From Rutstroemia sp. NJR-2017a BVV2 (lineage: Eukaryota; Ascomycota; Leotiomycetes; Helotiales; Rutstroemiaceae), in assembly GCA_002946415.1 (NCBI GenBank), contig NJPS01000010.1, forward strand, positions 310,001 through 374,000: 64,000 nt of DNA. The letters are read 5' to 3'. Shown here in pieces: positions 21,001 through 46,438 of this stretch. The stretch's first letter is position 1. Each line of letters opens with the position of its first letter. The notes under the pieces are model-generated. The model searched no databases and had not been told where the DNA came from. It saw only the letters and a list, made by a program, of their open reading frames with translations. A program made the translations under genes and the position numbers.

Positions 21001-22622
21001 ACTATGTATTCAGCTCGTTTTTGGCTTCAAGAGACAAAAGGATCTATTGCGATCAGCTCCTATCTGAGCCTACGAACTGGAAGGAGGCAATGAGGCATAA
21101 GTATGTATCAAAATGGCTCAAAGCAGTAGAAAAAGAGCTTAATACGTTGATGTGAAAAGAGATGTTTGAGTATGTTCTGTAACCATCTGATGGTATAATC
21201 CTACTTCTATTGAAATGGGTTCCAAAATACAAATTCGACGCCGACGGCTTCCTAGACTCTTTTAAAATACGTCTCTGCGCGAGAGGTGATTTACAACATA
21301 CCAACGATGATATCTATACGGCAATATTAGCTGTGCAAATCTTTCGAGCTGTTATAGCTATTGCTGCAGCTTTCGACTTAGATATACGGCAATACGATGC
21401 TATTAATGTATTTGTCAATGTGATCTTACATCCACCTATTTGCTGTAAAGCACCGCTAGGATTCGATAAATCAGGGCTTGTTCTTATAGTGCATCGAGTA
21501 CTTTATGGACTCAAGATATCGCCGAATTTGTGGTATTTGCTACTGGTTTCGGTGCTTGAAGAGCTAGGTGTATCGCAAGTTCTAGGTATCAACTGCTTAT
21601 TTACAAATGACTAGCTAACACTTCTTTTTTATATCGACGATATCATTGCGGTTTATCATCCAAAGTATAAAGCGAAAATGGACGAATTCGAGTATAAGTT
21701 GATGTAATGCTTTGAGATCAGAGCTATGGGTGAGATCAACTATTTCCTTGGAATCCGTATTATTCGAAAAAGGGATGAACGAAAGCTCTATTTAATCCAA
21801 AACTCCTACATCGATAAAATCCAAGAACGTTTCAAGATCGAACCTTCGAACTACATTAAAACACCACTGCCGATATAAGAGCTAGTTAAAAACGAAGTAA
21901 TAGTAACAGAATTGTAGATCAAGGTATACCAAAACCGCGTCGGCTGCCTAACATATACAGCTATAATCAGCCGTCCTAATATTACGAAAGCCATTTCGAA
22001 GCTCGTAGAGTTCCAGCAGAATCTATCGCAATCGTATATTGATGCTGCAAATCACTATCTCAAATATCTTATTTCAACAAAGAACCTGGCGATTATATAC
22101 AACGGCAATATCAGCTCAAAGCAGATCTTTATAGCTGCTAGCGATGTAGTATTCAGCGATGATGTAACAACACGATTCAGCTTAAATGGCTTCTGCTTCC
22201 AGCTTTATAGAGGTGTAATCCATTATAAAGCAACTAAATAGCGAACAGTCACTACCTCTAGCACCGAAGCAGAGCTCCTAGCTCTGTCCACAACTGCTAA
22301 GGAATTTATATGGTGGAAGAGACTGTTTGAGAATCTCAATTTCGATCTAGAGTCAGAAATATCCATTTATTGTGATAATCAACAAACGATCAGACTGATG
22401 AACATGGATATATCTAGACTAACTACGAAGCTGAAGCACGTGGATGTACATTCGTACTGGCTGCATCAGGAAGTACAGTCCAAGAAGCTCAAAGTCGATT
22501 GGATCCCAACCGCCGATATGGTTGCGGATGGATTTACGAAGCTTTTAAGCCCTCAAAAGCATACACGCTTCGTAGAGCAACTACGACTAATTGACATTTC
22601 AACTGAACTAGCTACAACTTAG
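18054..22622 (+). pseudogene. copia gag-pol polyprotein with eight in-frame stops
   Basis: One continuous frame of 1523 codons with no frameshift. Gag 1-280; zinc-knuckle remnant CPCNNK...HCWQLNP (about 282-302); protease DSGSD (about 389); integrase zinc motif (H-x-H...C-x2-C, about 524-565) and catalytic core with FVMLDNEKN and NGAAEVAGK (about 645-700); reverse transcriptase with YIDD near 21630; RNase H with TEAELLALS and YCDNQQ. Stops at 19476 (TAG), 21153 (TGA), 21180 (TAA), 21612 (TAG), 21705 (TAA), 21876 (TAA), 21915 (TAG) and 22239 (TAG); natural stop at 22620. Each fits a single C-to-T change in CAA, CAG or CGA, the signature of repeat-induced point mutation or deamination. The longest open pieces are 18054-19478 and 19479-21155. 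Confidence 0.95.
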
Positions 22623-22865: not shown

Positions 22866-23470
22866 GCTCCTAATTTCTCCCTTTTTTCTCGGAGCCGTAT
22901 AAATCGCTATACTGAGGGATTTTTCGACCATTTCCGGGGTATATCCATCAACCTGCGTAATAGTAGTTGCATGCAGCACTAGTACCCCCGGCATGAACGG
23001 AAACATGATGGTGGCCGTAAAGCCGGGAAGCATGTAGCCTGTTCTTACTTACAGTAGCAATTTTGTACATACGAAGTGTAGTACCCACATCGTTAATTGC
23101 CCGTTCAACAAGCTTCTCCTCTTGTCGCCTGAGTCACCTTATTGCCTAACTGCACTCAAAACGGTGCATAGGGCAATATGTAGGTGATCAAGGCTGATTC
23201 ATATTAATCATGGCATAAGGCCCTTCTATATAGTCCTTTATGTACAAGATCATCCGATGTTTTAGATTGCTGTGCCTCCATTCGGACCGACACCTCTCAT
23301 GCCTACGCCAACAGAGTATAAAGACAGGTATACTGCCTATCCATTCCTCCCAGGAAGTCATCAACAGTCACATTCTCTGCATCGTCAGCAAATTCGCACT
23401 CGTTGTCAATCTCAACTCACTCTCACTCTCTACTCGGTCTCAACGTTCGCAACATCAGCGCCGACAAAAC
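22866..23470. other. Intergenic between the retrotransposon and the lipase
   Basis: Includes a TATAAA at 23317-23322, about 150 bp before the lipase start, a good core-promoter candidate. A minus-strand open stretch (22870-23033) runs toward the insertion site but has no recognised family. Confidence 0.5.
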
Positions 23471-24910
23471 ATGTTTATCTCAGCACAACTCTTCCTTATG
23501 TTCCTTATATCAAGGACTCAGGCTCAGCCTCAGAATCAGCCTCAGACGGGCATAGGTCAAGCATCCAACTTCAATATCAGCGCCGATGAGGCGTTGAAAT
23601 ACGGGTGCGGCGAGAAATGCCAAGAAGTCCTGACTTACACCAACGCTGCTGACCTCCAAACTATGGGAACTGCGTTCGACTTTGAGTTCTATGCCACAGC
23701 AAAGAATTTCTCTTCTTCATCCGCCCCTGGCGACTTGCTGAAGCTTGTGCCTATCAACAGCACTCAGCTCACTGTCCCCGATGGCATGACTACATTTCGA
23801 TTTCAGTACGTTTCTAAAAACGTCGATGGGAGATCCGTACCAGCTACTGGATTTATCGCATTCCCATATTTAAAACCCGATAGTGGAAAATATCCTCTTA
23901 TCGCGTATGCTCACGGAACTATCGGCGTCTTTCCTGGTTGTGCCCCCTCCTCTTCTCCAACTCTGTTCAACTATAATAGCTGGGGTCCGCTGATGTACCG
24001 CGGTTATGCTATTGTGGCAACTGACTATGCCGGCCTTGGGAACAATCACACTACACTCAGATACCTCAGTTATGTTGACCACGCAAACGACGTTTACTAT
24101 TCGGTCCAGGCAGCTCAAAAAGCTTTTCCTGGAGTTTTCACGAAAGAATGGATGAGTATTGGTCACTCTCAAGGAGCCAGTACGGTATGGAAGCTATCTG
24201 AGCACCCACTAGTACAGTCTTCTACCTCTGGATATCTTGGGACTGTTGCAGTAGCTCCTGCACCTAGGCTCTATGATACGGCGGTAGCTGTCTATGAGCA
24301 AATTATTCCTCGACCGGACTACCATCAATATGTTTTCACTGCTGAGATGGGCCATGTCATTTACGGAGTTATGCAAGCATTTCCTAACTATACGGCTCCA
24401 TGGTGTGGTGAAGGGCTCAGGAAGAGGATAGGGCTCGCCTCTCTCGGTCAGATGTGTACTCTAGCATTTGGGGGCCTATCACTCGACTTGCCACGAGACC
24501 AGCTCTACCTCCCCAATGTTAGCGTCAAAGACGATAAGACGTTCAAGGAATTCCAGAAAATCCATGCTCCAGCCCAAGGTGATCGGGCTTCACGCCCAAT
24601 GCTTGTCATACACGGTATGAATGATACTTCATGTCTCATCGAGATAACTGAGGAGACGGTTCGGGACGCTGTCTCAGCAGGAAACGAAATCGAATTCCTC
24701 CGCTATCCTGGACTCGATCATTCGGCGACATTGACTGCTTCCTCACCAGTCTGGTTGAAGTATATCGACGAGACATTTGCTCGGACGCGTAGATATTCAA
24801 ACTCAACAACCAAGACGGTAGAGCCATTCAATCTCGCCGTGGCCAAAAAATCATTGGAGGCTCCAATGCTGTTTGAACAGCCATTCCTTGGGCTTCTCGC
24901 AACATCCTAG
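23471..24910 (+). CDS. Secreted lipase-type alpha/beta hydrolase
   Basis: Single exon, 479 aa from ATG 23471. The frame is open back to 23240, but the later start gives a clean signal peptide (MFISAQLFLMFLISRTQAQ) and sits downstream of a TATA box. Belongs to the fungal secretory lipase group: oxyanion region AYAHGT (about 145-150), nucleophile elbow GHSQG (S233), acid in HGMNDTS (D385) and histidine in GLDHSAT (H417). Several N-glycosylation sequons (for example NNHT, NVSV, NDTS). Extracellular ester or triglyceride hydrolysis is the likely role. It is complete and undamaged although a retrotransposon ends 0.6 kb upstream; a promoter effect is possible. Confidence 0.9.
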   Translation: MFISAQLFLMFLISRTQAQPQNQPQTGIGQASNFNISADEALKYGCGEKCQEVLTYTNAADLQTMGTAFDFEFYATAKNFSSSSAPGDLLKLVPINSTQLTVPDGMTTFRFQYVSKNVDGRSVPATGFIAFPYLKPDSGKYPLIAYAHGTIGVFPGCAPSSSPTLFNYNSWGPLMYRGYAIVATDYAGLGNNHTTLRYLSYVDHANDVYYSVQAAQKAFPGVFTKEWMSIGHSQGASTVWKLSEHPLVQSSTSGYLGTVAVAPAPRLYDTAVAVYEQIIPRPDYHQYVFTAEMGHVIYGVMQAFPNYTAPWCGEGLRKRIGLASLGQMCTLAFGGLSLDLPRDQLYLPNVSVKDDKTFKEFQKIHAPAQGDRASRPMLVIHGMNDTSCLIEITEETVRDAVSAGNEIEFLRYPGLDHSATLTASSPVWLKYIDETFARTRRYSNSTTKTVEPFNLAVAKKSLEAPMLFEQPFLGLLATS

Positions 24911-25834: not shown

Positions 25835-26200
25835 CTACGTTATCGTCCTACAAATCCGCAGCGTACTCGACGCACTAAAGGATCGCGTTCCATTTTTCGG
25901 ATCTCCTAGTATACGTAACTCTTCACTAGTAGGCCAAGCAATCTTCAAAACGTAAGGTGTGTCGCTTCGGCGATATATATAAGTTGTGATGCCTTCCGGG
26001 GGAGGTCTGTCATCAGGAACCATTTTTGGGGCTCGTGCTAGGAGAGGAGGATGCAGTGGAGTATCTCTGGTGAGGGAAGCAAATTTCGGGCGAGGAGAAC
26101 AAGGTGGGTAGTTTTCGACGATGGAAGACCATGTTTGAGCGTCAAGGCCGGGGGAAGGGGCTTGAGCAGGTCGCGTGGAGGAACTGCTGGTTGAGGACAT
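25835..26200 (-). CDS. Array gene 1: small LRxx(W/R)T-tail protein
   Basis: Single exon, 121 aa. N-terminal 1-15 is a Ser/Thr run; 45-70 is proline-rich. Residues 72-121 match the tail of array gene 2 in layout: SEELRILGDPK here against KGEVRILDNPR there, both followed by the L-R-x-x-[W/R]-T signature (TLRICRTIT at 113-121) ending at the stop. No signal peptide or membrane segment; probably intracellular. Same strand as all other array members. Function unknown. Confidence 0.65.
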   Translation of the reverse strand: MSSTSSSSTRPAQAPSPGLDAQTWSSIVENYPPCSPRPKFASLTRDTPLHPPLLARAPKMVPDDRPPPEGITTYIYRRSDTPYVLKIAWPTSEELRILGDPKNGTRSFSASSTLRICRTIT

Positions 26201-26744
26201 GGTGCTTGCTTAATGTTTTTGGAAGATGTCTGAGGAGACTTTGCTGTAAGTGGTGGGGAATTGATTCTGCTTTGAGCATGGATGAGACGTCGCATTCATA
26301 AAGAAAAAAGGTTCGTTGTTCACGTTTGATCATTATTTAACAACATATGGTCGGTCGCCGGATGGTATCTGTTGGGACAAACGGCAAAGCATATTCACTC
26401 GTGTGGGGCGCAATCTCCACCACCTGGGAGTGAATGATATTTGTAATTAGTCTACGGCATGGCACCATTTGAGGTGCACTTAATAAGGGCTACGATACCC
26501 ACCTAGAATAAGAAATCATCATGCATCAACACAATCATTTTGGCTATATCTAAGAATATGGGCAAGGTGATATAAGACCTGATACATACCAACAGTGTCC
26601 GTCGGTCTCCTGTACTTGCCCAGCAGCCATGACTTAGTGACAGGAACTACAGCTACAGCTACGGAAAAGGATGTATAATTTACGACACGATGTAGGAAAT
26701 ATACTGCAATAGAAGTAGACTTTGGAATATAAAACATTCTCAGG
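26201..26744. other. Intergenic within the array
   Basis: Leader of array gene 1 (to about 26340) and AT-rich spacer. A 72-codon minus frame at 26519-26737 has no array signature and is not called. Confidence 0.45.
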
Positions 26745-26927
26745 TTACGTTACTATATAGCTCCAGGCGTGAGTAACTCGGCTTCTCACGACATTCTGTT
26801 TCAAAACAGTACTTGGATAACTTTCAACCTTTCTTGAAACCGGTATAGATCCATACCCCATATTCACATTTCCAAAATCCACCAATTCAACTACCTCCAA
26901 AAATATATTGTATCCAACTTCTTCCAT
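26745..26927 (-). CDS. Possible array fragment (60 aa)
   Basis: Starts with ATG at 26927, only 24 bp downstream of the stop of array gene 2. Its end, RSRVTHAWSYIVT, resembles the SKLRHAWTYM end of that gene. It could be a partial tandem duplicate of the tail domain or a chance frame; there is almost no room for a promoter of its own. Confidence 0.3.
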   Translation of the reverse strand: MEEVGYNIFLEVVELVDFGNVNMGYGSIPVSRKVESYPSTVLKQNVVRSRVTHAWSYIVT

Positions 26928-26951
26928 TCTTCCCTCCTTGCATTATACACT

Positions 26952-28199
26952 CTACATATAAGTCCAAGCATGCCTCAACTTACTAGGAGGACACCTCCAC
27001 CTCAGTAACCTTGGATTATCCAAAATCCTCACTTCACCCTTCGTGGGATTATAATCCGTAACCTTAACACCCCACCTGGCAAGTGATCCAACACGTTTCT
27101 CAGGCGTGCACTCGTAGGGATCGAAGATGCGTTTCCAGGATTTAGAGCGCTCGCTCGCATATTCGTCCTGGTAGAAAAAGATAGAGATCCAGTTTACTTC
27201 AGGTCGGGGTGGGGGCGAGGGCTGACGTTGCGGTGGGATGACGAGGATGGCGGGGCGGGGACTAGGTGGTGGGGCGGAGTTGCTTGCGTCCTCGAGGTCT
27301 ATTGTTTGCCAGTCTAAGACGGCGTTAAGGTATTCTTCTTCGCCAGATACGCTAACCCCCCCTTTCTCATCGCTTCCCTCGTAATCACCGAACCCAATCT
27401 GCTCCTTATATGTGTGCCCCTCGGTGTGCTTGCCGCGCGAGCCCTGATCCTTCGAGAACTGATACATATAACCAACATCCTGTGCGGCTTGAGCGATGAT
27501 TTGCAGATTCTTCTTTGCATCTTCTTCAACGTGATGTTCGTTCTCTTTCTCCTCATCCTCTTTAAACTGAAAGATGGCTAATTCCTCCGATGAGACACTG
27601 TACAAATCCAAAATTGACCCTTCACCAATCTTGCTGGTATTCTCTTTCAGATCATCGCTCTCGTCGTCGGTATCAGAAGAGTGACAATCAGAGTAACTGC
27701 TGATATCCGAGTCGAAATCTTCCAAACGTCTGATCGTCTCATCTTCAAGAGACTTTGAATCATCAGAATCTGTTGACGAGAAGCTATATGGTCCAGAGAA
27801 TTTTTCAAGATCTGAATCTGAATCCGAATGCTCGACGTATTGGATATCCATGAAAGAGTCCGAGAACGAGCCCGTGAACTCAGAGGTTAAACTAGATAAT
27901 GTCTCGTTGGTATCCAAATTAACCAAGGCACTCGTGGCCGAGCTCGTTTCTCGGTCATTGTCATTATCCATCTTTCTCTCGTGACGCGCCATGAGAGACT
28001 CGGTTTTAATCATATTGGAGGGACAAAAATTTATGGAAATAGGAGTCGACATTGAAAAATTCCGTGCTGGAGATCTTGAAGGCAATGCAGGTTGAGGTTC
28101 TTTAGTTATTTGCTCCGACGCCAATAATTCTTCAGCTTGACTAGCTGCTTCGATAACGTCGTCTGCCCAGTCGAATTTTGCTTCGTTCGTAAGACTCAT
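26952..28199 (-). CDS. Array gene 2: 415-aa acidic, serine-rich protein with LRHAWTY tail
   Basis: Single exon from ATG 28199. N-terminus carries FDWADDVIEAA (residues 9-19), echoed by SWAEEVINAF in array gene 8. Residues about 100-290 are extremely Ser/Asp/Glu-rich (SDSDLEKF, SSTDSDDS, SDTDDESDD), a disordered region full of casein-kinase-2-type sites. From about 300 it is Pro-rich, then folded (VNWISIFFYQDEYA). The tail domain GVKVTDY...GEVRILDN...KLRHAWTYM covers 377-415 and ends at the stop. No known domain recognised. Likely intracellular. Confidence 0.78.
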   Translation of the reverse strand: MSLTNEAKFDWADDVIEAASQAEELLASEQITKEPQPALPSRSPARNFSMSTPISINFCPSNMIKTESLMARHERKMDNDNDRETSSATSALVNLDTNETLSSLTSEFTGSFSDSFMDIQYVEHSDSDSDLEKFSGPYSFSSTDSDDSKSLEDETIRRLEDFDSDISSYSDCHSSDTDDESDDLKENTSKIGEGSILDLYSVSSEELAIFQFKEDEEKENEHHVEEDAKKNLQIIAQAAQDVGYMYQFSKDQGSRGKHTEGHTYKEQIGFGDYEGSDEKGGVSVSGEEEYLNAVLDWQTIDLEDASNSAPPPSPRPAILVIPPQRQPSPPPRPEVNWISIFFYQDEYASERSKSWKRIFDPYECTPEKRVGSLARWGVKVTDYNPTKGEVRILDNPRLLRWRCPPSKLRHAWTYM

Positions 28200-29066
28200 G
28201 TTCTAGTGTGGGTGATTGATTAAATTGATGCTTAAAAAGGTGCGGTATATATATGATTTGACAGTGATTGGTGTTTCGTTGTTTCCATACACAAAGAAAA
28301 ATAAGTAGAGCCTCGCTCCGAGTTCGAAGACGGTGCGAATTGAACATATACATTGAGGGTCATAATTGTTTCGTGGTTGTTCTTCTTCATATATCGAAAG
28401 CGTGCCATTCTGCAGTTTTGCAGACGGGAAAGCCCTAGCAGGTGACCAATGAATGCGAGACTAGAGTACTATACCAAAAGTTAGGTTGCACAATTACAGC
28501 AGAAATATCTGTCTGATTCACACAGTCAAACTAATAAGAACTACAGCAGATTTTCATTCGTACGGCACGAGAATTACTTGCACAGCATGGCCTTACAGAC
28601 ATACCATACCTATTTAGCAATTCAGTATCTACGAGAGAGATGAGCTACATACAGAACCTGTTAATCTCCCTATATAGTAAGTAGGTTGTGAGCCCCTTGA
28701 AGGACCTCGTACCCATTAGAAAATGCAAGTGAGAAGTGCCACGGTTTGGAAGTCAGTCCGCAATTTCACCAGATCAATCCTGACTTGGTCTAATATTCAA
28801 AGGCTAGGCATGTGCTATTCGGTAACAAATCTGCTATGGCTTTCAAGGATATGGTGTTATCACTGATTAGCTACTTTTGCGCTGTCCAAACAACTGAGTC
28901 CTACACTCTCGTAAGGAATTAATGCTCTCCTCCATGCACACTAACCATCCCGCAACACGCTTCACTCCCAAAAGAGATAACCATCCACCTATTCGAAGAG
29001 AAAGCTGATCCTTTCATGTATCTTGCCTGTCAGTCGCTCTTAAACCCTGTCCGTATCCGGGCAATC
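28200..29066. other. Intergenic within the array
   Basis: Promoter of array gene 2 (to about 28500) and AT-rich spacer. Nothing gene-like seen on either strand. Confidence 0.5.
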
Positions 29067-29888
29067 CTATTCCTTGTATGTCCAGCAATACCTCAAGTTC
29101 GTGCTCCCGGGTCGTGGTATCTTCTCCCTCCCAACTTTAAAATAACTAGGTCTTGAAAACCACAGCTCCATCTCAGCTTCCATCATTTCCGCATATGTGA
29201 TGTCGATTCCCATCTTGTGAAACTTCAACCATATCGAATAAGGTATCCTGGTCCACAGGTTTCCTGTCCTGCGATTGCTCTGGGAGATGTATTCTCTCTT
29301 GTATGGGGAACCTCTGGACCAGCGGTCTCTCTGTATGCTGACTAAAGTGCGGCGGGGTCTGAAATGAGAGGTTTTCGGCCTCTTACAAGAGATGTCTGAG
29401 GAGGATGAGCTTTCGTGTTGTTCATAGTTGTCATCTTTTTCCGTTTCGTGATGGTACTCGGTCTCTTCTTCGGAGTCACGGATGATGGCTTCGCGGTCTT
29501 CGTCAACCTCTCCGGTGCCATTGCAGCAGGTACGAGAGATGAACATACCGCCGACAGCAGATACAAGGTGACTGATAGTTCTGCTAGTAGTGTTTTTAGA
29601 CAGTCTACTCGGAGGCTGTCTGTTTCTGGTGCTTGGTGCCGATGATTCTTCGTCCGCGCTCATTTTGGCTTCCGCAGGTCTTTTCTTAGTGAACTTCTTC
29701 GAGTCAGAACTTATTAAAGCGGCCGAAGTTATGGGTTGAGTGGCTAGAGGATAGCGCGGGTCCGAATTATATCGAAGTGCGTCTCGAGAATCTAGCAGGT
29801 TATTAGAGAAGTGTCTGCGATGTCGGTTCGTGTGCATGCCGTTACCTTTGCCGTGTCGTCGCCCATGGGCGGATGAGAAGCGAGCCAT
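29067..29888 (-). CDS. Array gene 3: 273-aa basic/acidic protein with LRYCWTY tail
   Basis: Single exon from ATG 29888. N-terminal third is Arg/His-rich (RRHGKGNGMHTNRHRRH) and could be a nuclear signal; 145-185 is acidic (EEETEYHHETEKDD) followed by a serine run. The folded tail starts about 210 (NLWTRIPYSIWLKFHKM). It contains GIDITYAEMMEAEMEL (227-242), closely like GIHVTTAERTLTELIL in array gene 9, and ends NLRYCWTYKE (264-273). This is the clearest copy of the shared signature. No known family. Confidence 0.78.
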   Translation of the reverse strand: MARFSSAHGRRHGKGNGMHTNRHRRHFSNNLLDSRDALRYNSDPRYPLATQPITSAALISSDSKKFTKKRPAEAKMSADEESSAPSTRNRQPPSRLSKNTTSRTISHLVSAVGGMFISRTCCNGTGEVDEDREAIIRDSEEETEYHHETEKDDNYEQHESSSSSDISCKRPKTSHFRPRRTLVSIQRDRWSRGSPYKREYISQSNRRTGNLWTRIPYSIWLKFHKMGIDITYAEMMEAEMELWFSRPSYFKVGREKIPRPGSTNLRYCWTYKE

Positions 29889-30415
29889 TACGAATGATAG
29901 TGTGCTGGTACGTAAACGAATGTTGTTAAATCTACTTCAGTTGTTTGATGGAGCAAAAAGATGGTAGTAATGTATAATTGATGTGCAAATAAGGTGGCTC
30001 AAATTTTCCTTGTGAGAAATGTAGCGTAGGCTGCGTAGCATTTGGAGAAGGAACGACACAGACAACTTGACTACTGCCCAGTTCGAATGCAACGCTTATT
30101 ATTCCGCAACTCATGATTGCAGAGCAGACCATGGAGATTATTCTATTTTCCAAATCGTTCGTAACAGAGGGTCGGAATTCTTGAGTGCGAAGATTGCTTG
30201 AATACCAGTCTTTGCATCCTGAGCACCAAACACATCATAATTTGCGGTATCACTTCCAAAATCTTCACGGATGGAAATGGAAATTAGAACTTCCTCGTAT
30301 CGAGGAGTAAATTCTTTTATCTGCAGATCAATCCACTAGCCCAGCGACCCTGACATAAAAATATCAATTTCCACTTTCCTCAGCCGATGCAACCGTTGCC
30401 ACAGTTCTCAACACA
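29889..30415. other. Intergenic within the array
   Basis: Promoter of array gene 3. The open frame at 29932-30153 minus lacks array features. Nothing else seen. Confidence 0.45.
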
Positions 30416-31483
30416 CTAGGTTTGCACCTCCACCGAGTCATCTTCCAGCTCCCAGCCAGTCGTATTTCTCCCTCCGAGTCCAACATCCTCCAAAGTGATA
30501 CCCACCTCATAAAAGTCTCTTCTCAGCCTCAATGAGCTCGGCTGATAGACCCGTCCTCCGAAAATATCACAGAATAACAGATGCTCCATCAGCGGACCCA
30601 GGTTAAACTCCACTGGTCTTCGAATATTTATAAGACGGCGTGACTGGTGGTCCACACCCGGGATGCGCACTTTATCTTTCAACAGGCAAATCAACTCCGC
30701 ATCGCTGTCCAAGTAGCAATTGTAGACGTAGAGGTGAAGTCGGATCAGTCGGATCAGTCGGATCTGCTTTGCTTTGTGTGAAGGAAGAGCGAGCTCGCGT
30801 TGTATGTGCTCATCACTGCATCAGTGAAGTAGATCTTGTCCAATCGGTCATGCGGGATGAGCGAGCCGAGTTGTTTCGTTTCCTCTGGCGTGCCGTTGTG
30901 GATGTATTGTTTCCAGCCTCGGTTATTGAGGGTGGAGGTGCTTGATGTTACTATTCCGGAAGAAGTGAAGATAATGCTGTCAAGAGGGGGAATGGCGGAG
31001 ACGACCCTGGGCCTATATTGTCATTGGGCGGCTTTGATTCGAAGTCAAAGCTGGCGGACACCAAGTTTCGGGTTTTGGATCTGAGATAGCGAACAAGAAG
31101 AAGATATAAGCGAGAAATCCAAGTATCAAGTATTTTTGGTGCTTGATCTGCCGCTTTGCATCCTGGGAAATACCGGCAGGAATAGGTAGAATAGCGATGA
31201 AGATCCAGATACAAGATAAGCCAAACCACTTGAGAGCCTGGAGCACGGATTGTAATTGAGGGTTTCCACAGTGAAAATGGGAGAATCGGATAGCAGGGAG
31301 GAAGCCAAGTCCTAAAAGAAAAAGAAGTAGGCCAAGAAAACAAAAGAAATAGAAAAGTAGGCTATCCCACGAAGACCTTGAAGATGAAGGTTCTGTAGTT
31401 GGGAGCGCTGGAGAGGTATCTACCGTATCTGATGGTAAAGGTTCTGTAGTTGGGAGTACTGGGGAAGTATCTAAATTTGACAT
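30416..31483 (-). CDS. Array-embedded three-helix membrane protein (model uncertain)
   Basis: Proposed exons complement(30416..30763, 30818-side exon 30817..31012, 31062..31483), 321 aa. Exon 1 (ATG 31483) begins with two copies of DTSPxLPTTEP, then three membrane helices (about 38-60, 78-100, 115-135; LLLFLLGLGFLP, CIWIFIAILPIP, LGFLAYIFFLFAI). Without splicing it would stop at 31013 as a 156-aa protein. A 49-nt intron (31013-31061) and a 48-nt intron with a weak GTGATG donor (30764-30816 region) join it in frame to a soluble domain (NRGWKQYIHNGTPEE, PHDRLDKIYF, then AELICLLKDKVRIPG). The soluble part spans a triple 9-bp repeat (ATCCGACTG) at about 30737-30763. Alternative: a short membrane gene beside a separate or frameshifted soluble gene. 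No family recognised. Confidence 0.4.
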
Positions 31484-31996
31484 AATGATAGTTGTTAGTA
31501 ATATGTTTCCATTCATGAAGATAGAAGTATGAAAATTGAAGTATACATACAGTAGGGTGGAGGTGGTTCTTGCTTCATGATGGATGGTAATTTGTAAAGG
31601 TGAGGAAGGGAAAGAAGTATTGTGTGCACGGAAGTAACTTATATATTCGGTTTTTTTTAAGTTATTACTAGTTTGTGGCATAATCTCACTCTGCATGTGA
31701 TTTCCAATTATATACACACAAAAAGCTTTCGATGTGAACTGAAAGTATTTCAATCTGAACTGAGGATATTGTAATCCAAAATAATGCTTGATATTTAACG
31801 CCAGGGAAGCCACTAATCTACTGTCCGCTCCATACTAGTGTCGAGATAGGGGAATATAGCTCGCTGCGAGCAACTGGACTTCTTGAATAGGTAAAGGGCC
31901 CGCCCCTATATTAGTGAACCACATTAATACTCCCAGACGAACCACTCTATCCAAACGACAGCCTCTTCTAGCCACCCTAATTGTGCGCCTAGTATC
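31484..31996. other. Intergenic within the array
   Basis: Promoter of the membrane-protein gene. The frame stays open upstream to 31813 but only from a GTG, so the upstream extension is not used. Nothing else seen. Confidence 0.45.
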
Positions 31997-32971
31997 TTAG
32001 AAAATGGATTCATTTTCGTCGACAGTTGCTTGGTCCGAAACTATAGACACGAGCTCGTCACTAGATGATGTCTCGGCCCCATACTCAGATATTTCGACCA
32101 ACGTATTCTCTTTCCGAGCGTCGAGTTCGTCGGACGGAACCCAGCATTTGCGCAAAGGAGAGGTACGTTTTACGCGGAAGCGGTGCAATGATCGATGGTT
32201 TTCTAGAGCTTCGTCGCCGCTTGTGCACTCGGCCTCGTGCACGTTGACTTTTCTTCCATTGATGAGAAGAATGCAATGAACGGGATCACCAGCTATATAA
32301 TTGGAGAGTCAGTAAGGATTTGATTCAGAATAAAGAATATTGTTTTGATACTCACAGTCCGACGCGACAGGTGGCAATCCATCGCTAAAGCTCCGCGGAT
32401 CAAACAGTGTTTGTCTGAGCATAGGAGCAAATAGAGGAGGTATTAGGTGTGCAAAATCTTGGTAGGATGACTCAGACTTGGGAAGTGAAGACGATGGAGG
32501 GGATATTGGACCAAAGAGAGCTGCATCCGTGACTACCAAGGGTTCACCACCTAGGGCTTTGCCCTGTGCTTCCATCATAAATTCAATGTCCTCCGCATCT
32601 CCAAAATCTTCGAGGTCTTCGAGGTCTTCGTGATCATCAACATTCGTTATCTCTTCTTCTGCTGCTTGTCGCAATCTCTTGTCCTCATGCGATGCATCTA
32701 ATTCTTCTGCTAAACTCCTTCCCTTTTTACGGCCGATCGTCACATGGATTCCTAGACCATCGACCTCTAAGTCGGCCTCTTCAGACTCTGCGGCCTCAAT
32801 TTTGGTCATTTTCTGTAGACGGTGTTTGACATCATCTGGCTCTTCGTCTGGAGCGTACTCGCTGGTTAACTTTCCGGAATTCAAAGCAGTAACCCATGCA
32901 CTCGTTATATCGCCTGAATCGAACATCTCAGAAAAGGATGACTCCTTCTTCTTCTTGATATTCGGTATCAT
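31997..32971 (-). CDS. Array gene 5: 303-aa acidic protein with LRKCWV signature
   Basis: Two exons, complement(31997..32292, 32356..32971), joined by a GTGAGT-donor intron of 63 nt. Residues 1-10 are Lys-rich (IPNIKKKK); 40-140 are strongly acidic, including DDHEDLEDLEDFGDAED. After the intron comes PVHCILLINGRKVNV (209-223), then FRVKRTSPLRKCWV (244-257), which matches the array signature. Unlike genes 1-3 it continues for 46 residues (Ser/Glu-rich) beyond the signature. No signal peptide. Function unknown. Confidence 0.7.
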
Positions 32972-33642
32972 GATTGAGTTCGAGTTGTCGCAGTGTCGCT
33001 ACTGGAGTGAAGGTAATAAATTTGGTTGGACGACGAAGTTGCTGTCTAGACTCACTCGTCAGTATATACCAGTTCACCCTCGTTCTGAGAATAGCTTCCT
33101 ACCTGCAAAGTAGAATTCAGTCCTTTCATGAAAAATCTACTGACACGATAGTGAGTAGGAGTTGGTGTATCCGCAAGTAGGTTTGTGCAAGCGGAGAAGG
33201 GAAATAGTTTAGGTTGGGGACTTTTCCCTGTAGAAGATACAGCGGTGCCAGGTAGTGAATCTGTAATTTTCCAAATTTCTTGGTGCACCTGTCACTTATT
33301 TGGTAAGCTTCCTGTATGAAATGAGTTAATAAAGTATCCAGCCCCCTTCACGAAGCACTATATAGCTAATAAGCCTCCCTCTGGAGCAGAAAAAAAAGAT
33401 CGACAGTGAAATCGGGAGAAAAGTTGAGGATATTTATTCGTTCATTAGTGACGGCCAAGGTCTCAATCACACAGTGAACCATCTCGTGCGAACAATCACG
33501 CATTTTTGTTCTGAGCATTGATCTAATCTTCAATCCCGTCACCAACTCTCCGGCATCCCAAGATCGCCATGCTTCTTCTTACACGTCTAGCATACCCAAC
33601 GCCGTCGTCTCCTCACTTCTCCCGTTGCGTCAAAACCAAAGA
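32972..33642. other. Intergenic within the array
   Basis: Promoter of array gene 5. A 78-codon minus frame (33052-33288) has no array signature. No gene called. Confidence 0.45.
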
Positions 33643-34326
33643 CTACCTCCGTGCACCACATTCTTCCAGGTACGTTTGCGACCATCTCAAATTACTCGTC
33701 TCGATACATCGATACTTACTCAGCTCGCGGTCGAACTCGAGCGCATCTTCCGCTTCTGTCACCCAATGATAGTCGATATTGATCCTCAACTGCTTGAACC
33801 TCGCCTTTCGAATCGAATCTGCGGCAAATAGAACACCGTTCTTCATCTCCCCGAAGGCTGCTGGTGATTTCTTAAAGATGTTAAGGGGTCGAGCGTTTGT
33901 CGTGAATGATAATGGGGAAGGCATAGAGCTCGAGCAGGTGGAAGTGGAGGTATTTGCAGATGCGGGAGAGTGGAAGATACTTTCAATGGGTCTTTCATGA
34001 TGATCTGCTGTGTATTTGCTGTTCATCTGAAGTTCACTGTCTGTGCCGAAGACGAACTCATTGGAGGCACGTTCTGAGTCGTCGCCATTACTGAGAAAAG
34101 TCTGCACGGATTGTAATCAGTCTCCAGAGTCTCTGTGGTCGCTTGTCATCTTTACACTTACTCTAGGCGTACTGAAATCTTTTATATCAGCTAAGCCACC
34201 TCTCCAAGCGTCCGGGTAGTAGGTGTCCTGGAGTCGGAAATTGGACGACCATTCAGCGATCTCTTCCTCGACCATTGCCGTGAGTGGGGCAATATCGGCA
34301 TGCAATGTCCCCAGAACCATTGCCAT
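33643..34326 (-). CDS. Array gene 6: 207-aa protein with LRWSQTY signature
   Basis: Two exons, complement(33643..34101, 34162..34326), phase-0 intron of 60 nt with GTAAGT donor and cag acceptor. N-terminal exon (MAMVLGTLHADIAPL, then EEEIAEWSSNF) is short and helical. The middle is Ser/Thr-rich (ANTSTSTCSSSMPS). The tail holds LRINIDYHWVTEAEDALEF (about 160-178) and SNLRWSQTYLEE (191-202), aligning with the gene 3 and gene 9 tails, with five residues after. Cytosolic by appearance; function unknown. Confidence 0.7.
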
Positions 34327-35671
34327 TGGATTTTATTGCATTGGGGTGCAAGAATCGCTGGTACCTCAACTCGAGATGGTATGGTGAGGATACAACTTTC
34401 TGCTCGCTCAACAGCCGAAAGTCTAGATACCGAGATTCACCTCAGCTGACATTTCCCATTCCAGACTCGAAAATCCGATTTTCCGTATCCTCGTGAATCA
34501 CAATGCCTTTGATGCGAATCATGAATGATGGTATAACAAAACCTCGCGGCTGCCGGAGCGAGGTTGATTTAAGGTGTGTGCCGATCATAAGCGGCAGCTG
34601 CGAGATGACATGGCTGTGGGTCCGCATGAAGGCCTATCATGGAGAACATGGAAGGAATGAGAGCCTCTACAAAGCTCAACTATGTAGAGTTGCTGTTCGA
34701 CCAGCTCTGCAGCAGTATTACTTGCATTCGTCATGGTATGTTAAACAGTTCCAAGGACCCAACGAGAATTGGTGTACAGCTGCCAAGATTGTCTATACCC
34801 GTCAAGAACACTTGGGTATTTCAACACTCAAACTTCAACTATTCTAAGAGTTTAAAGAAGATGCACCATTTTGGTAGTCTAAAATTTTGTAATACAGGTG
34901 TTTGAACATACTCCTAAACTGCAATATGGAGATTACGTGAAGTTGTTCGCAACTTGTGGAGCTTGAACCGACAGTGACTCTGGTACGAAAGCCGACGCAG
35001 ACATTGCGACTAAAGCTTCAAATGCAATGAAGTTGCTCTCCAGCGACCTGAGGACAATTCTAGACACAATTAGTCGTATTAGTCTACAGAATCTAATCAC
35101 TGGATCGAAGGTAGTTACACACTGGACACATATCACACAAGCTCAGCCCTGCGAGCACACCGAATTATAAACCAAAATAGCACTTTTATATTGTTCTACG
35201 AAACTATGAGTGATATTTCCTATTAACTTTTGATTGCAGCTTGTTATCCCGTTATATTTGGCTCCCTCACGAGACACTCATGTGTCACACAGAGCCATGA
35301 TTCGAGTCGAGCTGGAATTCCCAACTGCCCAAGTCCTGCCGGACAACAAACGGATGGTCAGTATATTTCGGTCACAATCCCCTGTTTTCCCCTTAGCATA
35401 AAATCGCCACTCCCTCAACCCAAGCAAAGATTCTTGCCGTGTTTTCATCTGGTCTGGTGAAAGTCTACTCGATTAGACCAGACCATATAACGAGTAGCTG
35501 CCCGTTTCGCAGGGCAGTCGGGTAGTGCACCCCTCGTTTTCATTCCGTGCCCAGTTTCCACGGGCCCTCATACGGTTTCTGGATAGAGCAACAATTGAGG
35601 TGGCCATCACCGGCTCGACAACATATCATCTTCTCCTTGATCCTCCTGCCTCGCACCAGGCGCGCAGACCT
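34327..35671. other. Longest gap inside the array
   Basis: About 1.3 kb with no convincing gene. Several plus-strand frames (34503-34847, 35230-35460) start with ATG but have no array signature, no low-complexity acidic region and no intron logic. Could hold a fully eroded member. Confidence 0.4.
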
Positions 35672-36599
35672 TCAAGCACGCAGGTCCCACGCAAGCCCAT
35701 GCGACCGCATAAACTTTACCACAGGCTCACACCTCGCTATTCTCAACCACAACTTCTCCTGACCGGCGGAACACATCTTTAGATACCCAGCCCATGAGTA
35801 TCCGTTGCCGACACTCTCAAACTCAAGCTCCTTTTGCATCTCAGCAATATCGACGTAGAATGTATCGTCCAGTCGACACAAACACTCGTGGTCAGAGAGA
35901 GCAAGCGCATCAATAGCCACTCTTCGAGCTCCGTCGTCGATGGAAACTTTGAGGATGACATCGCCGTCATTTTCGTCGCCGTCTTGGAGCTCTTCGATTT
36001 TGATTTCGACTTGAGGAATTTGTGGTACTGAATCGTGGTTGTTGAAATCCACTGCATATTTCTCTCTCTCTTCATCGTCGCACGTTATATAGTTGTCGAT
36101 TATCGTTTGCGTTTCTTCGCCTACTTCGATTTCCTCATCCTCTCTATCCAAGTCACTGTCGTAGTCTCCATTATTCCGCATCATATGACTGCTCCAGTCA
36201 TTCACCCCCACGCTTTTTAAATATGATTTCATCCTTCTGTCCCACTGGAGTTGCTTAAATCTATTTGCATCCGGATGCAGAAACTAGAATATTGATCAGA
36301 GTCATTAGTATGCGCGTCTAAACCAATCCTATCCCTCAGGAGCTCCATCCGTCTGCGCCGAATATAAATCGTGAATCAATCAACGAACAAGAGGGAAAAG
36401 CTCAACTCACAGGGTCATCCACTGGTCTTTTAAACTCGGGAGTATAATAAATATTATTTTCTTCGTCCTCATCTCCTAGTCTGACGAACTCATGTTCCAT
36501 GCCTATGCAAACGGCCCCGTCGAATTCCCATGGATTATTCTCGTCCGAATATGGCTGAAAGGCGCGCAGATACCTAGAGCCTTTGAGAATGGACGACAT
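35672..36599 (-). CDS. Array gene 7: 266-aa acidic protein, no LRxxW tail
   Basis: Two exons, complement(35672..36283, 36411..36599); 127-nt intron with GTGAGT donor and a TACTAATGAC branch. Start MSSILKGSRYL at 36599. Residues 100-150 are acidic; VEIKIEELQDGDENDGDVIL (about 160-180) parallels IDVEVSIYDEDDGDAISVML of array gene 8, the best evidence that it belongs here. The C-terminal 60 residues (FYVDIAEMQKELEF, EPVVKFMRSHGLAW) have the spacing of the other tails but lack the L-R-x-x-W core. Function unknown. Confidence 0.65.
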
Positions 36600-37165
36600 G
36601 ATGATAAAATGCTGGGAGTTTCTTGTGCTTGTTTTTTGTCCTTGCATGTTATTTCGCGGGTTTTTATCTTGGGGAAGGAGCGTCGAATTTTTAGGTGGTG
36701 TATGAACAACTTGTGTAGAACTGCCGTTTGCTGTACTTACAGGCAAGAAATTTTCGAAGTCCAGATTTGCTGAATTGATTTGAGATGGTCTTTTTCTCAT
36801 TGGTTCCTGCCTTCTGTATCTTCAAAAACACTCATAGTGAATTGAAGGACACATCTAACTTTCACATGCCTCGAGACTTTGCTTACAGACTTCCGGCTTT
36901 TTATACTACAATTACGATTCACGAGCATACTCATTTCCCAAAATTGAGCCGAAATATGCATCTATTCTCATTTCAGTCCGAGTCCTAGTTGGTCATTTAT
37001 GCCCGCGCCTTGTTTGTTTCCCTCAGAAATCTCGCAGCTCTAATCATGAGCCTCCATCCATTCCATATGCGTTCCGAAAATGCAATCATAGTTTCTCCTT
37101 CCGTTTTGTGAATGCGCCAAATCCAACCGTAGAATTGTCCAAAACGCCTTAGCACCCACATCAGT
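36600..37165. other. Intergenic within the array
   Basis: Promoter of array gene 7; the frame is open upstream to 36800 and an upstream ATG exists, so a longer N-terminus is possible. Otherwise nothing seen. Confidence 0.45.
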
Positions 37166-38107
37166 TCATTGTCCTTCTTCCTCCATCTCCATACGAACAA
37201 CAGTCCGGCAGTACCTTAGGGGAGATGGTGTTGCAGCCCACCAATTGCGACCCACTCGCTTCACCTTGTAGATGGATGTGTCCTTGATCTCTATTTCTGT
37301 ATGTTCGATACGCAGTACATCGCCTGTGAGTGGATCTTGAGTTTTGCGGTCTTGAGTTGCAGTCCGTGAATTCAACAAGTCACAGGCGCCAAAGTGAGAG
37401 AGAGATGGTTCAGCATTCAATAATGGTAGAAGGGTTGCACTGCGGGCCTTCAGAACTGTCTCCGGTCGATTATAAGACTGGTCGTCATCCGAGTCTCTAG
37501 CAATTTCGACTTCATAACTTTCCATGCCCCAAAATCTCTTCAACTGGTCTTCCTTGGCCGAAGGATCGCACTCAGAGGTACCCCATGCTGTCACGGCTTT
37601 CTCGTCTTTCCTTTCTTCGTAATGATCTTCCTCGGCTTCCAACATCACGGATATAGCATCGCCGTCATCTTCGTCGTAAATTGAAACTTCAACATCGATC
37701 TTGCCAGTGAAACACGGCATGCTCTGCTTGCTCAAGAATTTGCGGGGATTCTCGGCACGACGCATCATTTCCACTGCAGCGTTCTTTGTCAAGTCGGTCA
37801 AGTCGCAGCTGAATTCATAATATTCGAACGGTGGGTTGAATTGAAGGGGAGAGATTTTCTGGTCGCAAAATAAGTGGCTATATTTTTAGAAGCATTAGAA
37901 TTGACTCACGTAGCACTTTGTTTCATGAGAAACCCTCTTAGTAAGTTTGAGGGGTACACTTTCGGGTGGAAGGGATATCGACGTTCGATTCGTAGATTGA
38001 TAGTCTTGCAGGTCCTGCTCTTTGGATACTGCATTCTCAAAGGCGTTGATGACCTCCTCGGCCCATGACCCCACCATGGATGGTAACAGTTCAACCAGAG
38101 TTGCCAT
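37166..38107 (-). CDS. Array gene 8: 296-aa acidic protein with LRYCRTV signature
   Basis: Two exons, complement(37166..37858, 37910..38107); 51-nt intron, GTGAGT donor, gaccag acceptor. The nearer tatag acceptor would break the frame. N-terminus has SWAEEVINAFENA (13-25), like FDWADDVIEAA in array gene 2. The middle holds IDVEVSIYDEDDGDAISVML (about 105-124), shared with gene 7. Near the end is YKVKRVGRNWW, then SPLRYCRTVV (278-287) plus a nine-residue acidic tail. It therefore links three different array members through three separate segments. No known domain; probably intracellular. Confidence 0.72.
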
Positions 38108-39039
38108 ATTCGATTCACTCGAGATTGAGGTTATTGCGAATGCTGTAAGACTGTAAAACTGAACTGGATGTGGATGCAATGACTTATAAACCGCCTCTCA
38201 ACCTTCGAGAGCTCAGCATAAATATAATTTTTGAAATAAGATCGTACGAGATATATTAAACTTTGAATTGTGGTCATAAGAACTATATGAAGAGATTAAG
38301 AAGAATATTATGAGCCACTGGATCATAGGGAACAACAAGATGTCTAAATAGATCAATTTAACTTTTAAAATCAGCTGCTCAATAGGTAAATAAGATCACC
38401 AGTGGTCAGTGAGAGTATATGGTGATAGAGCACGGAGAAAGTGCTCACAGAACAATAGTCTGAATAGAAGAGAATAGATTTAAGACAATAGGGTGAATCA
38501 TTTGCAGCGACTGACACATTAAGTTTGGTTCACGAAAAAGTGAAGTTTTTGAAGTGACTAGACAGGAGAGCAAGCAGGTGACTTCGGCGGAGAGAGAAAC
38601 GCAGTGAATAACATTAAAAGTTATGCATAGTTGAAAGATTTTTCAGATGATGCAGGTGAAAACAGCGGTGGGTTACTTAATTATCGATTGGGAATTCTAT
38701 GTGTGTTTTATATTATCAATGTTGGTGAAAAGGGGTAAGTGAAACAGCTTCTCCTTTCGCGCCCTTGTATTGGATTCGGATGCACATCACTAGTGATGTC
38801 GCTGGTAACGGACTTCCAGATGCTCCTTGCTCATCTATCGCTATATGTCAGGAGGGAAAAGGGGAGGTCATGTGAATAATTACCACACTGAGAAGAGTGT
38901 TATGTCTGCGGCCCGAATGGAAAGTCAAAGAAATAAACTCGTACTACAATTTCCTTTCTTGCAACTCTTTTTGTTCCACTTTTGTTTTAAGAGGATCTAT
39001 ACCCTCTATCATTATGTTCATAGTGTCTGAGTAAGGCTC
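38108..39039. other. AT-rich spacer in the array
   Basis: Promoter of array gene 8 followed by about 0.7 kb of AT-rich sequence. No gene seen on either strand. Confidence 0.5.
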
Positions 39040-39531
39040 TTACCGGCTTCTTCTCCTTTCTCTCACGCTCCTCCCTTTTTCTTCTCTCAGAATCTCAAGT
39101 GCCGCGGCCTCCCTCTTCCTCCATTTTTCTTCTCTCAGAGTCTTAAGTGCCGCGGCCTTCCTTTCTTCATCCGTCATATTACTCATATACGTCCAGAAAG
39201 TTCTTAGATTGCTCGATCTTCGACACATATATTTTCCAAGCTTTTTGTCATCCTTGACAAGAAGTATAAGCTCGGTTAGTGTACGTTCAGCTGTTGTTAC
39301 ATGAATGCCATGCTCATCTTGTAACACTCTTTTTTGCTCGGCGATTAAGGGTGCCATTTCTTCTGGGGTCTTTGGTATTTGGCGTCGCATTGGCTTGTCT
39401 GGAAGCGGTGTTCGCGATCTCGACCTGCCTCTTTTCCGAGTGTTTCTTTGCGGACTGGCTAGGTCTAGAAGATGTGTTCGCATTTTAGACGTCACTTCGA
39501 TTGCGGTTGGGGTTGAGTTTGTGGTTGCCAT
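39040..39531 (-). CDS. Array gene 9: 163-aa basic protein with LRTFWTY signature
   Basis: Single exon from ATG 39531. Residues 31-50 are Arg-rich (TRKRGRSRSRTPLPDK), a likely nuclear signal. HGIHVTTAERTLTELIL (74-90) and SNLRTFWTYMSN (107-118) align with the tail of array gene 3. After the signature is a 45-residue charged coil with an internal repeat (EERKAAALKTLREEK, then KREAAALEILREEK), absent from the other members. The last codon overlaps a GTAAGA sequence, so a further 3' exon cannot be excluded. Function unknown. Confidence 0.68.
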   Translation of the reverse strand: MATTNSTPTAIEVTSKMRTHLLDLASPQRNTRKRGRSRSRTPLPDKPMRRQIPKTPEEMAPLIAEQKRVLQDEHGIHVTTAERTLTELILLVKDDKKLGKYMCRRSSNLRTFWTYMSNMTDEERKAAALKTLREEKWRKREAAALEILREEKGRSVRERRRSR

Positions 39532-39874: not shown

Positions 39875-40841
39875 CTAGTTCATAACAATCCCACCATCAA
39901 TAATCAAAGTTTGTCCTGTCATGTAATCGCTGTCTGGGCTAGCCAAATAACTGACGCACTTCGCAACATCTTCAGGAACGCTCGTTCTTCCCAGAGCAAT
40001 CAAGTCTTCTGAGTACTTCTTAATAGTTTCTCCCTTCTGCACACCCCTAGTCTTTCCCAGCTCCTCGTCAATCAAATCCCACATGGCTGTACCAACGATT
40101 CCTGGTGCGTAGCCGTTGACTGTGATTTTGTGCTCCGCCATTTCCATCGCGAAAGCTTGTGTGAATCCCCGAACAGCGAACTTGGACGCACTGTAGTGCG
40201 AAAGCATGGCGAATGGCTTGAATGCAACGATACTGGAGACTCGCTCAGTACCGAATCTAGAAACAAAAGTACAAGGACACCTACCTTGCAGCACCAACAA
40301 TCTTTCCACCTCCACCTTGCTTGATCATTTGCTTCGCAGCAGCACTGTAGCAGTTGAAGACACCAAACACGTTCACCTCAAACATTCTCCTGACATCATC
40401 CTCCGACAATGATAGGAGCGATTTGACTTGCGCAATGCCTGCATTGGCGATCATGACATTGAGATTCCCGAGGTTTTTAACGGATGCTTCAATGAGTCCT
40501 TCTACCTCGCTAAGCTTTGAAACATCTGCGACATGCCCATATGATGCTCGTCCCAGATCCTGGATCTCTTTGACGGTCTAGATGAATCAGCGATGAATTT
40601 TCAGAAGACTCTCAGCAACAGACCTCATCGATGCCAACTTTATTAGCCGAAATGTCATTGATACAGACATCGAAGCCATCCTGGGCCAGTCGAATGGCAA
40701 TTGATTTTCCTCTGTCATCACCTGGTTAACTCCACAATCTACCGAGGAAAGGGTCCAGCAAACGCACATTCCTCTCGCAGAGCCCGTGACAATTGCCGTC
40801 CTCTTCCCATAATCCTTCGTAACCGCAGTGCTACTGGCCAT
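39875..40841 (-). CDS. Short-chain dehydrogenase, acetoin/diacetyl reductase-like
   Basis: Four exons, complement(39875..40232, 40285..40577, 40624..40711, 40768..40841), 270 aa. Classical SDR: TGSARGIGK cofactor loop (19-27, rebuilt across intron 1), NAG motif in MIANAGIAQ, catalytic S152, Y165 and K169 (YSASK), and the C-terminal YMTGQTLIIDGG. Closest in feel to meso-2,3-butanediol dehydrogenase/diacetyl reductases, which reduce acetoin or diacetyl with NAD(P)H; exact substrate not provable here. Intron 2 has an unusual GTCTGT donor and intron 1 GTGCGT, both needed for the frame. Palindromic sites and a CCAAT box lie 210-285 bp upstream. Confidence 0.9.
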
Positions 40842-45753: not shown

Positions 45754-46191
45754 TCAATCGGAGACGATTGATAGAATTTGGTTTGCTTTTCTCCTGAATC
45801 GCCGGAGAACCCTTCGTTGCCGTTCTGCTGCTTCCTGATCACTGCAGGCCTTCTTAAACGCGTCCAAGTCAAAAGGCTTAGATTTGCCCTCTTTCTGTCT
45901 CTCTTTTTCAATCGCCCACTCCTCTAGAATACCAGGGTGCTGTTCAAAGCAATCTTTTCCTTCCCAGCTTGAGCGTAATAAAGGACAATCTTTCCACTTC
46001 ACAAGATACCAGATGTGTTGGTTTCTTGCCACTATCTCAAAGAGGATCTTCTCAGGAGGGTGTACTTCAGAATCACTTTCTAGACTTGCGAGAGACTCGT
46101 CTGAATCAGAATCTTCTTCTTCACTGCCAGAGTCCGATGCAGGAAAATGGTCAACATCTGGGGGAGGATCTAAAACAATATTTGTATTCAT
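45754..46191 (-). CDS. Small chromodomain protein
   Basis: Single exon, 145 aa from ATG 46191 (MNTNIVLDPPPDVDHF); an in-frame ATG at 46209 is an alternative start. An acidic Ser/Asp/Glu segment (about 18-45) precedes a chromodomain, EKILFEIVARNQHIWYLVKW then SSWEGKDCF (about 48-95), with the aromatic cage positions largely present. A basic helix (RQRRVLRRFRRK) ends it. Far shorter than HP1, with no chromoshadow domain. Chromodomains bind methylated histone tails, but in fungi stand-alone copies are also common relics of chromovirus integrases; the extra acidic and basic tails argue for a host gene. Confidence 0.82.
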   Translation of the reverse strand: MNTNIVLDPPPDVDHFPASDSGSEEEDSDSDESLASLESDSEVHPPEKILFEIVARNQHIWYLVKWKDCPLLRSSWEGKDCFEQHPGILEEWAIEKERQKEGKSKPFDLDAFKKACSDQEAAERQRRVLRRFRRKANQILSIVSD

Positions 46192-46438
46192 CGTAAGGAC
46201 AAGTGGCATTCGCACGCTGCTTGTAAAGATGGCGAATTGTTATGTCATGTGCGGCCATACTACGGGCACTTCTAGGGTGGATCTAGTAAACTTATCCAGA
46301 TATTATCTACCCACGGCCAGACGTCTTATCATGCCTCAGGCATTCGAAGCTATCGACGACTATCAAGTAGAGGCACATCCGAACCTCACGAACTAATTGA
46401 TGTATTTGGCTTAAATAAACCAATTGAGTCACTACAAA

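Follow-up and report, generated by a model that had tools for sequence, protein, structure and literature searches.

A tandem row of Rutstroemia genes that share a short C-terminal tail and differ in their bodies

We analysed a 64-kb stretch of DNA from Rutstroemia sp. NJR-2017a BVV2 (the window), which corresponds to positions 310001-374000 of its contig and contains a row of genes on the minus strand. Seven of these genes carry, towards the C-terminus of the protein, a tail with the signature LRxx[W/R/Q][T/V]. The seven signatures had been noted in an initial annotation made from the DNA letters alone, and all were confirmed at their places on the minus strand. The tandem tail genes are a real family, which has no model in the copy of Pfam that we searched and which is conserved in part. 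The features of the locus are listed below; lengths are given in amino acids (aa).

25835..39531: the cluster, all family genes on the minus strand
25835..26200, minus strand: gene 1, 121 aa, one exon; tail at about 25838-25993 (TLRICRT); based on open reading frame and profile
26952..28199, minus strand: gene 2, 415 aa, one exon; tail at about 26955-27110, end KLRHAWTYM-stop
29067..29888, minus strand: gene 3, 273 aa, one exon; tail at about 29073-29228, end NLRYCWTYKE-stop
30367-30522, minus strand: an eighth tail, gene-2-like (RWRCKPSVLR); based on profile and match to the gene 2 tail
31013-31578, minus strand: gene 4 region; two-exon model of a small membrane protein, rich in proline and with a number of hydrophobic stretches
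31997..32971, minus strand: gene 5, 303 aa; exons 32356-32971 and 31997-32292, intron 32293-32355; tail at about 32132-32287 (PLRKCWV)
33643..34275, minus strand: gene 6, 190 aa; exons 34162-34275 and 33643-34101; tail at about 33667-33822 (NLRWSQTY)
35672..36599, minus strand: gene 7, 266 aa if the start is at 36599; exons 36411-36599 and 35672-36283
37166..38107, minus strand: gene 8, 296 aa; exons 37910-38107 and 37166-37858; tail at about 37196-37351 (PLRYCRTVV)
39040..39531, minus strand: gene 9, 163 aa, one exon; tail at about 39184-39339 (NLRTFWTY); based on open reading frame and profile

One-exon and two-exon genes were both modelled, as the initial annotation had stated; exon 1 of gene 8 is a model without homolog support. 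Gene 4 was ruled out as an ordinary family member, being a membrane protein unlike its neighbours. The signature had been described as ending, or nearly ending, each protein. This is not so in every case: 9 residues follow it in gene 6, 11 in gene 8, 46 in gene 5 and 49 in gene 9. A 48-bp tandem duplication (39069-39162) lengthens the Lys/Arg/Glu-rich C-terminus of gene 9 beyond the tail. The codon-usage scores of genes 2, 5, 7 and 8 exceed those of most other frames, with gene 6 next; the scores of genes 1, 3 and 9 are not raised, and gene 9 scores better in another frame. These scores were not taken as proof of coding.

The palindrome CTATATAG occurs four times in the window (26753-26760, 28670-28677, 33358-33365 and 23226-23233), where 0.46 occurrences are expected; none of 100 shuffles reached four. 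Genes 1, 2 and 5 each have one of the sites 394-560 bp ahead of the ATG, whereas no site was seen in the 800 bp that precede genes 3, 6, 7, 8 and 9. The palindrome is possibly a shared promoter element.

The frequency of the signature was compared with 30 third-order Markov sequences of the window. The bare pattern LR..[WRQ][TV] is not unusual (22 in the window; Markov mean 13.4, maximum 25) and the same holds for LR..WT (3 in the window; mean 0.97, maximum 4). Two more specific patterns are unusual, namely LR..WTY (3; mean 0.03, maximum 1) and [NPKT]LR..[WRQ][TV] (9, seven of them from the family; mean 2.8, maximum 7). Whole-genome scans (43.4 Mb in 79 contigs) found the DNA pattern of LR..WTY at 30 sites, compared with 34 for a reversed control; 3 of the 30 are inside the cluster. 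Thirteen of the 27 sites outside it translate to the motif, one with an internal stop, and the open frames there span 10-93 codons. The concentration of LR..WTY is local, and a genome-wide amplification of the motif was rejected on these counts and on searches of the genome with its own genes. The modest counts of the two simpler patterns, and a genome-wide pattern no commoner than its control, are what could be expected if the signatures were chance matches to a short motif in unexpressed frames. We consider this explanation extremely improbable in view of the protein homologs of genes 2, 3, 5, 7 and 8 and of the clean separation between family tails and chance frames, both described below.

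The relationship between the tails was examined with profiles that were run against the open frames of the window (1,962 counted; 1,956 of them non-training frames in the leave-one-out runs). With a profile from genes 2, 3 and 8 plus their homologs, gene 9 was at the top (E 0.001), followed by the frame 30367-30522 (0.019), gene 6 (0.06) and gene 1 (0.34), all above the remaining non-seed frames; gene 5 ranked low (E 7.3). In leave-one-out runs of a profile hidden Markov model built from all groups, each of the seven held-out tails came at rank 1 or 2 of 1,956. The E values were 9.5e-9 for gene 6, 1e-6 for gene 9, 4e-6 for gene 5, 0.0068 for gene 3, 0.015 for gene 2, 0.026 for gene 8 and 0.041 for gene 1. 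Genes 3, 8 and 1 had rank 2, each behind the frame 30367-30522, and no other frame outranked any tail.

Because the tails had been picked by their motif, we also tested them against the 12 other frames that bear the regular expression. The 19 frames separate cleanly into 7 family and 12 chance frames, and in all seven runs the held-out family tail was first of 13. With the full profile, 11 of the 12 chance frames had E values of 15 to 600 and one was not reported. A control profile from the four chance frames of sufficient length brought none of them close to the top, with ranks of 190 and 636 and two not reported. Only gene 1, with its E value of 0.041 and no homolog found, might be a chance match.

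Masking of the LRxxW block left a clear signal only for gene 6 (rank 1), gene 5 (rank 2) and the eighth tail, which came first or second in six of the seven runs. The signal was weak for genes 9 (rank 11) and 1 (rank 15) and was lost for gene 3 (rank 806) and for genes 2 and 8 (both not reported), so that much of the common signal is that block. Taken together, the profile comparisons indicate that the tails share ancestry, with a strong relation in the end block and a partial one in the strand and helix upstream of it.

The eighth tail was absent from the list of the initial annotation. Its E value was 1.2e-5 to 2.1e-4 in six of the seven leave-one-out runs and 0.3 when gene 2 was left out. 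It matches the tail of gene 2 (RW-V...GEIRL...RWRCKPSVLR; none of 2000 shuffles was as good) and gave no clear match to the tails of genes 3, 5, 6 and 9, the other four compared. At the DNA level it has 28 bp in common with gene 2, a score reached by 5 of 1000 shuffles. A longer open frame in another frame overlaps it, and no gene model was found for it. With the gene 2 match, the overlapping frame and the missing model in mind the eighth tail looks decayed, and it is probably the relic of a gene-2-like copy.

A second common element is a motif centred on tryptophan, which is present in six of the eight intact genes if gene 7 is counted. It reads FDWADDVIEAA in gene 2, GSWAEEVINAF in gene 8 and QTWSSIVEN in gene 1, each time N-terminal, AEWSSNF in gene 6 and NDWSSHMM at an internal position in gene 7; a looser form, ITSAWVTALN, is found in gene 5. 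The pattern W[AS][DES].[VIMF] occurs in 5 models versus 0.30 expected from the window rate and W[AS][DES] in 5 versus 0.98, both patterns having been chosen after looking.

Protein searches returned 290, 915 and 158 candidates; they were limited in length and depend on common five-residue words. Homologs, labeled P0001 to P0009, were found for gene 3 (P0001), gene 2 (P0004, P0005), gene 8 (P0002, P0003), gene 7 (P0007) and gene 5 (P0006, P0008, the latter for a part of exon 1, and P0009). The Trp-centred motif is kept in P0004, P0005 and P0007, and the looser form is SAWV, TAWV or GSWV in gene 5, P0006, P0008 and P0009. Overall identity is 51% between P0001 and gene 3, 49% between P0004 and gene 2, and 76% (P0002) and 58% (P0003) for gene 8. 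P0002, P0003 and P0007 cover exon 2 only, while P0006 and P0008 cover exon 1. P0009 is the hypothetical protein ACMFMF_002632 of Clarireedia jacksonii (Helotiales, Rutstroemiaceae), known only under that description; it resembles gene 5 including the LRKCW tail and is contiguous across the modelled exon junction. All other homologs of the locus come from metagenomes, and other cluster members were not found in C. jacksonii by the protein searches made. The five proteins P0001, P0003, P0004, P0007 and P0008 (genes 3, 8, 2, 7 and 5) all report 4 contigs with a longest contig of 43,737 bp. From these identical statistics we infer a single contig, so that the block of genes 2, 3, 5, 7 and 8 is probably syntenic in the metagenome.

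The genes had been called orphans; the term is wrong for genes 2, 3, 5 and 8, which make up four of the seven genes with a tail, and also for gene 7. For gene 1 (part of which was in one query) and for genes 6 and 9 (queried with their tails) no homolog was found, which is weak evidence given the search. Searches of the genome with its own genes gave no further copies at the sensitivity of the tool, which scored only the best candidates. Gene 2 found itself and one match elsewhere (30% identity, E 0.26), which was to its acidic part and was not counted. No relative was confirmed in viral contigs when these were scanned for the families of genes 2 and 7. Between 25000 and 40000 no gene-scale DNA repeat between neighbours was present among the longest direct (20 of 49) and inverted (25 of 39) repeat families, and a recent tandem duplication at the DNA level was rejected on this basis. 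The separate counterparts of five genes and the lack of recent duplicates weigh against recent duplication. With these results, and with bodies that are 41-85% identical between species, the proposal of fast local duplication under strong diversifying pressure is not supported.

The Pfam scans agree with the statement that none of the genes is a known family. No Pfam match at cut-off, including HET, NACHT and NB-ARC, was obtained for 10 open reading frames of the locus, 4 spliced models and 4 homologs (gene 8 exon 1 left out); the best sub-threshold E values were 0.062 (P0002, SH3_14) and 0.076 (gene 9, RcsD_ABL). The strings LRYCWTY, LRHAWTY, LRKCWVP, SKLRHAW and NLRYCW had no exact match in the part of the literature that was accessible to the search. 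The Pfam results bear on the question of a self/non-self or conflict locus, in which intracellular recognition paralogs diversify by duplication and the tail couples them to a common executor. Heterokaryon-incompatibility gene families of fungi are likewise intracellular and variable between paralogs and have a common module. The single cluster with its strand bias and unrelated paralog bodies, the probable decayed copy between members and the three genes for which no homolog was found would suit such a locus. However, there is no HET, NACHT or other Pfam domain in the frames scanned, which is also the difference from the incompatibility families, and separate counterparts exist for genes 2, 3, 5, 7 and 8; we therefore regard this explanation as quite unlikely.

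By crude hydropathy no clear signal peptide was seen (best 12-residue mean within the first 35 residues, -1.13 to 1.57), and the family models contain no transmembrane-like stretch. That the genes encode host-interaction effectors released without a classical signal peptide is very improbable in our judgement, even though a gene 5 homolog belongs to a turfgrass pathogen, C. jacksonii. The secreted effector clusters of smut fungi are tandem, lineage-specific rows of diverged paralogs at one locus with no known domain. The locus described here has the same layout, but the smut clusters share a secretion signal, whereas the common element here is a C-terminal module and five genes have counterparts elsewhere.

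The homologs align along the stretches they cover, and tail and body can be compared. For gene 3 and P0001, 36/52 tail residues (0.69) and 106/215 body residues (0.49) are identical. The values for gene 2 are 39/52 (0.75) and 166/331 (0.50) with P0004, and 33/52 (0.63) and 115/278 (0.41) with P0005; those for gene 8 are 47/52 (0.90) and 108/150 (0.72) with P0002, and 41/52 (0.79) and 69/137 (0.50) with P0003. The tail figures of P0006 and P0008 (5/15 and 8/29) were set aside because both proteins read into the intron. Exon 2 of gene 7 has 155 of 194 aligned residues identical in P0007. By these alignments the bodies evolve faster than the tails in genes 2, 3 and 8, yet they are not hypervariable. 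The description of a constant tail and a variable body thus fits genes 2, 3 and 8, and gene 5 barely. FoldIndex is negative for 55-94% of the body residues in genes 2, 3, 5, 6, 8 and 9 and for 30% in gene 1. Overall, genes 2, 5, 6, 7 and 8 encode acidic proteins and genes 1, 3 and 9 basic ones. Bodies of this kind, not hypervariable and mostly FoldIndex-negative, and the lack of recent duplicates would also be found in an ordinary lineage-specific tandem family, in which disordered bodies drift under weak constraint and stability or localisation is the only reason for the tail to be kept. The Trp-centred motif and several body blocks are kept, however, and this suggests more than filler. We consider such drift somewhat unlikely, close behind the explanation that we favour.

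The explanation we tentatively favour, at a little below even chances, is an old family kept at one locus, whose products are disordered intracellular proteins with a tail that docks onto a common partner and with bodies that have diverged. The members would be largely disordered proteins, seven of them with a C-terminal module of ~45 residues that consists of a segment resembling G-[IV]-x-[IV]-T, a probable helix and then [KR][YWF]x[CV]...[ST]xLRxx[WRQ]T[YV]. Through the tail every member would dock onto the same conserved intracellular partner, the diverged bodies would make the paralogs differ in target or regulation, and the gene set could serve as alternative adaptors for one hub.

Several results weigh against this explanation. 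Gene 7 has no LR tail although it is placed within the row, and genes 3 and 9 are without the Trp-centred motif. With the LRxxW block masked, the relation of genes 2, 3 and 8 to the other members was undetectable. The searches yielded no homolog for genes 1, 6 and 9. In gene 5 the difference between tail (29/52, 0.56) and body (94/195, 0.48) is small with P0009, and 173 of 204 body residues are identical in P0006 (124/199 in P0008). The tails have FoldIndex values close to zero (-0.14 to 0.03). AlphaFold2 models were of low confidence, both for gene 8 exon 2 with two homologs (predicted local distance difference test, pLDDT, 30.8; a hairpin in the tail) and for the gene 2 tail with 11 relatives (pLDDT 53.9, predicted template modelling score 0.28; helices), so that no fold is claimed for the tail. 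Neither a Foldseek search of the gene 2 tail model against PDB nor a PDB sequence search, made with the gene 2 alignment only, gave a match. A novel intracellular adaptor system, in which paralogs of one locus are joined by a docking tail and a Trp motif while their bodies are replaced or have diverged past recognition, so that one hub acquires many specificities, is improbable in our estimate.

The tail profile and the Trp-centred motif together define a concrete module that has paralogs as well as counterparts elsewhere and for which the searched copy of Pfam has no model. The locus allows one to ask how a tandem family can retain a short module when the remainder of each protein changes past recognition. 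Should the tail bind a single partner, the locus would be explained by it.

The cluster is flanked by two enzyme genes, and further features were found in the window:

23240-24910, plus strand: alpha/beta hydrolase
about 39875-40840, minus strand: short-chain dehydrogenase, start set by eye

Long frames at 18054-21155 on the plus strand, 5 kb from the cluster, resemble by eye a Copia-type retrotransposon polyprotein. No Rfam or tRNA match was obtained when the window was scanned. A short chromodomain protein is encoded at 45754-46215 on the minus strand; its match to Pfam PF00385 is exactly at the cut-off.

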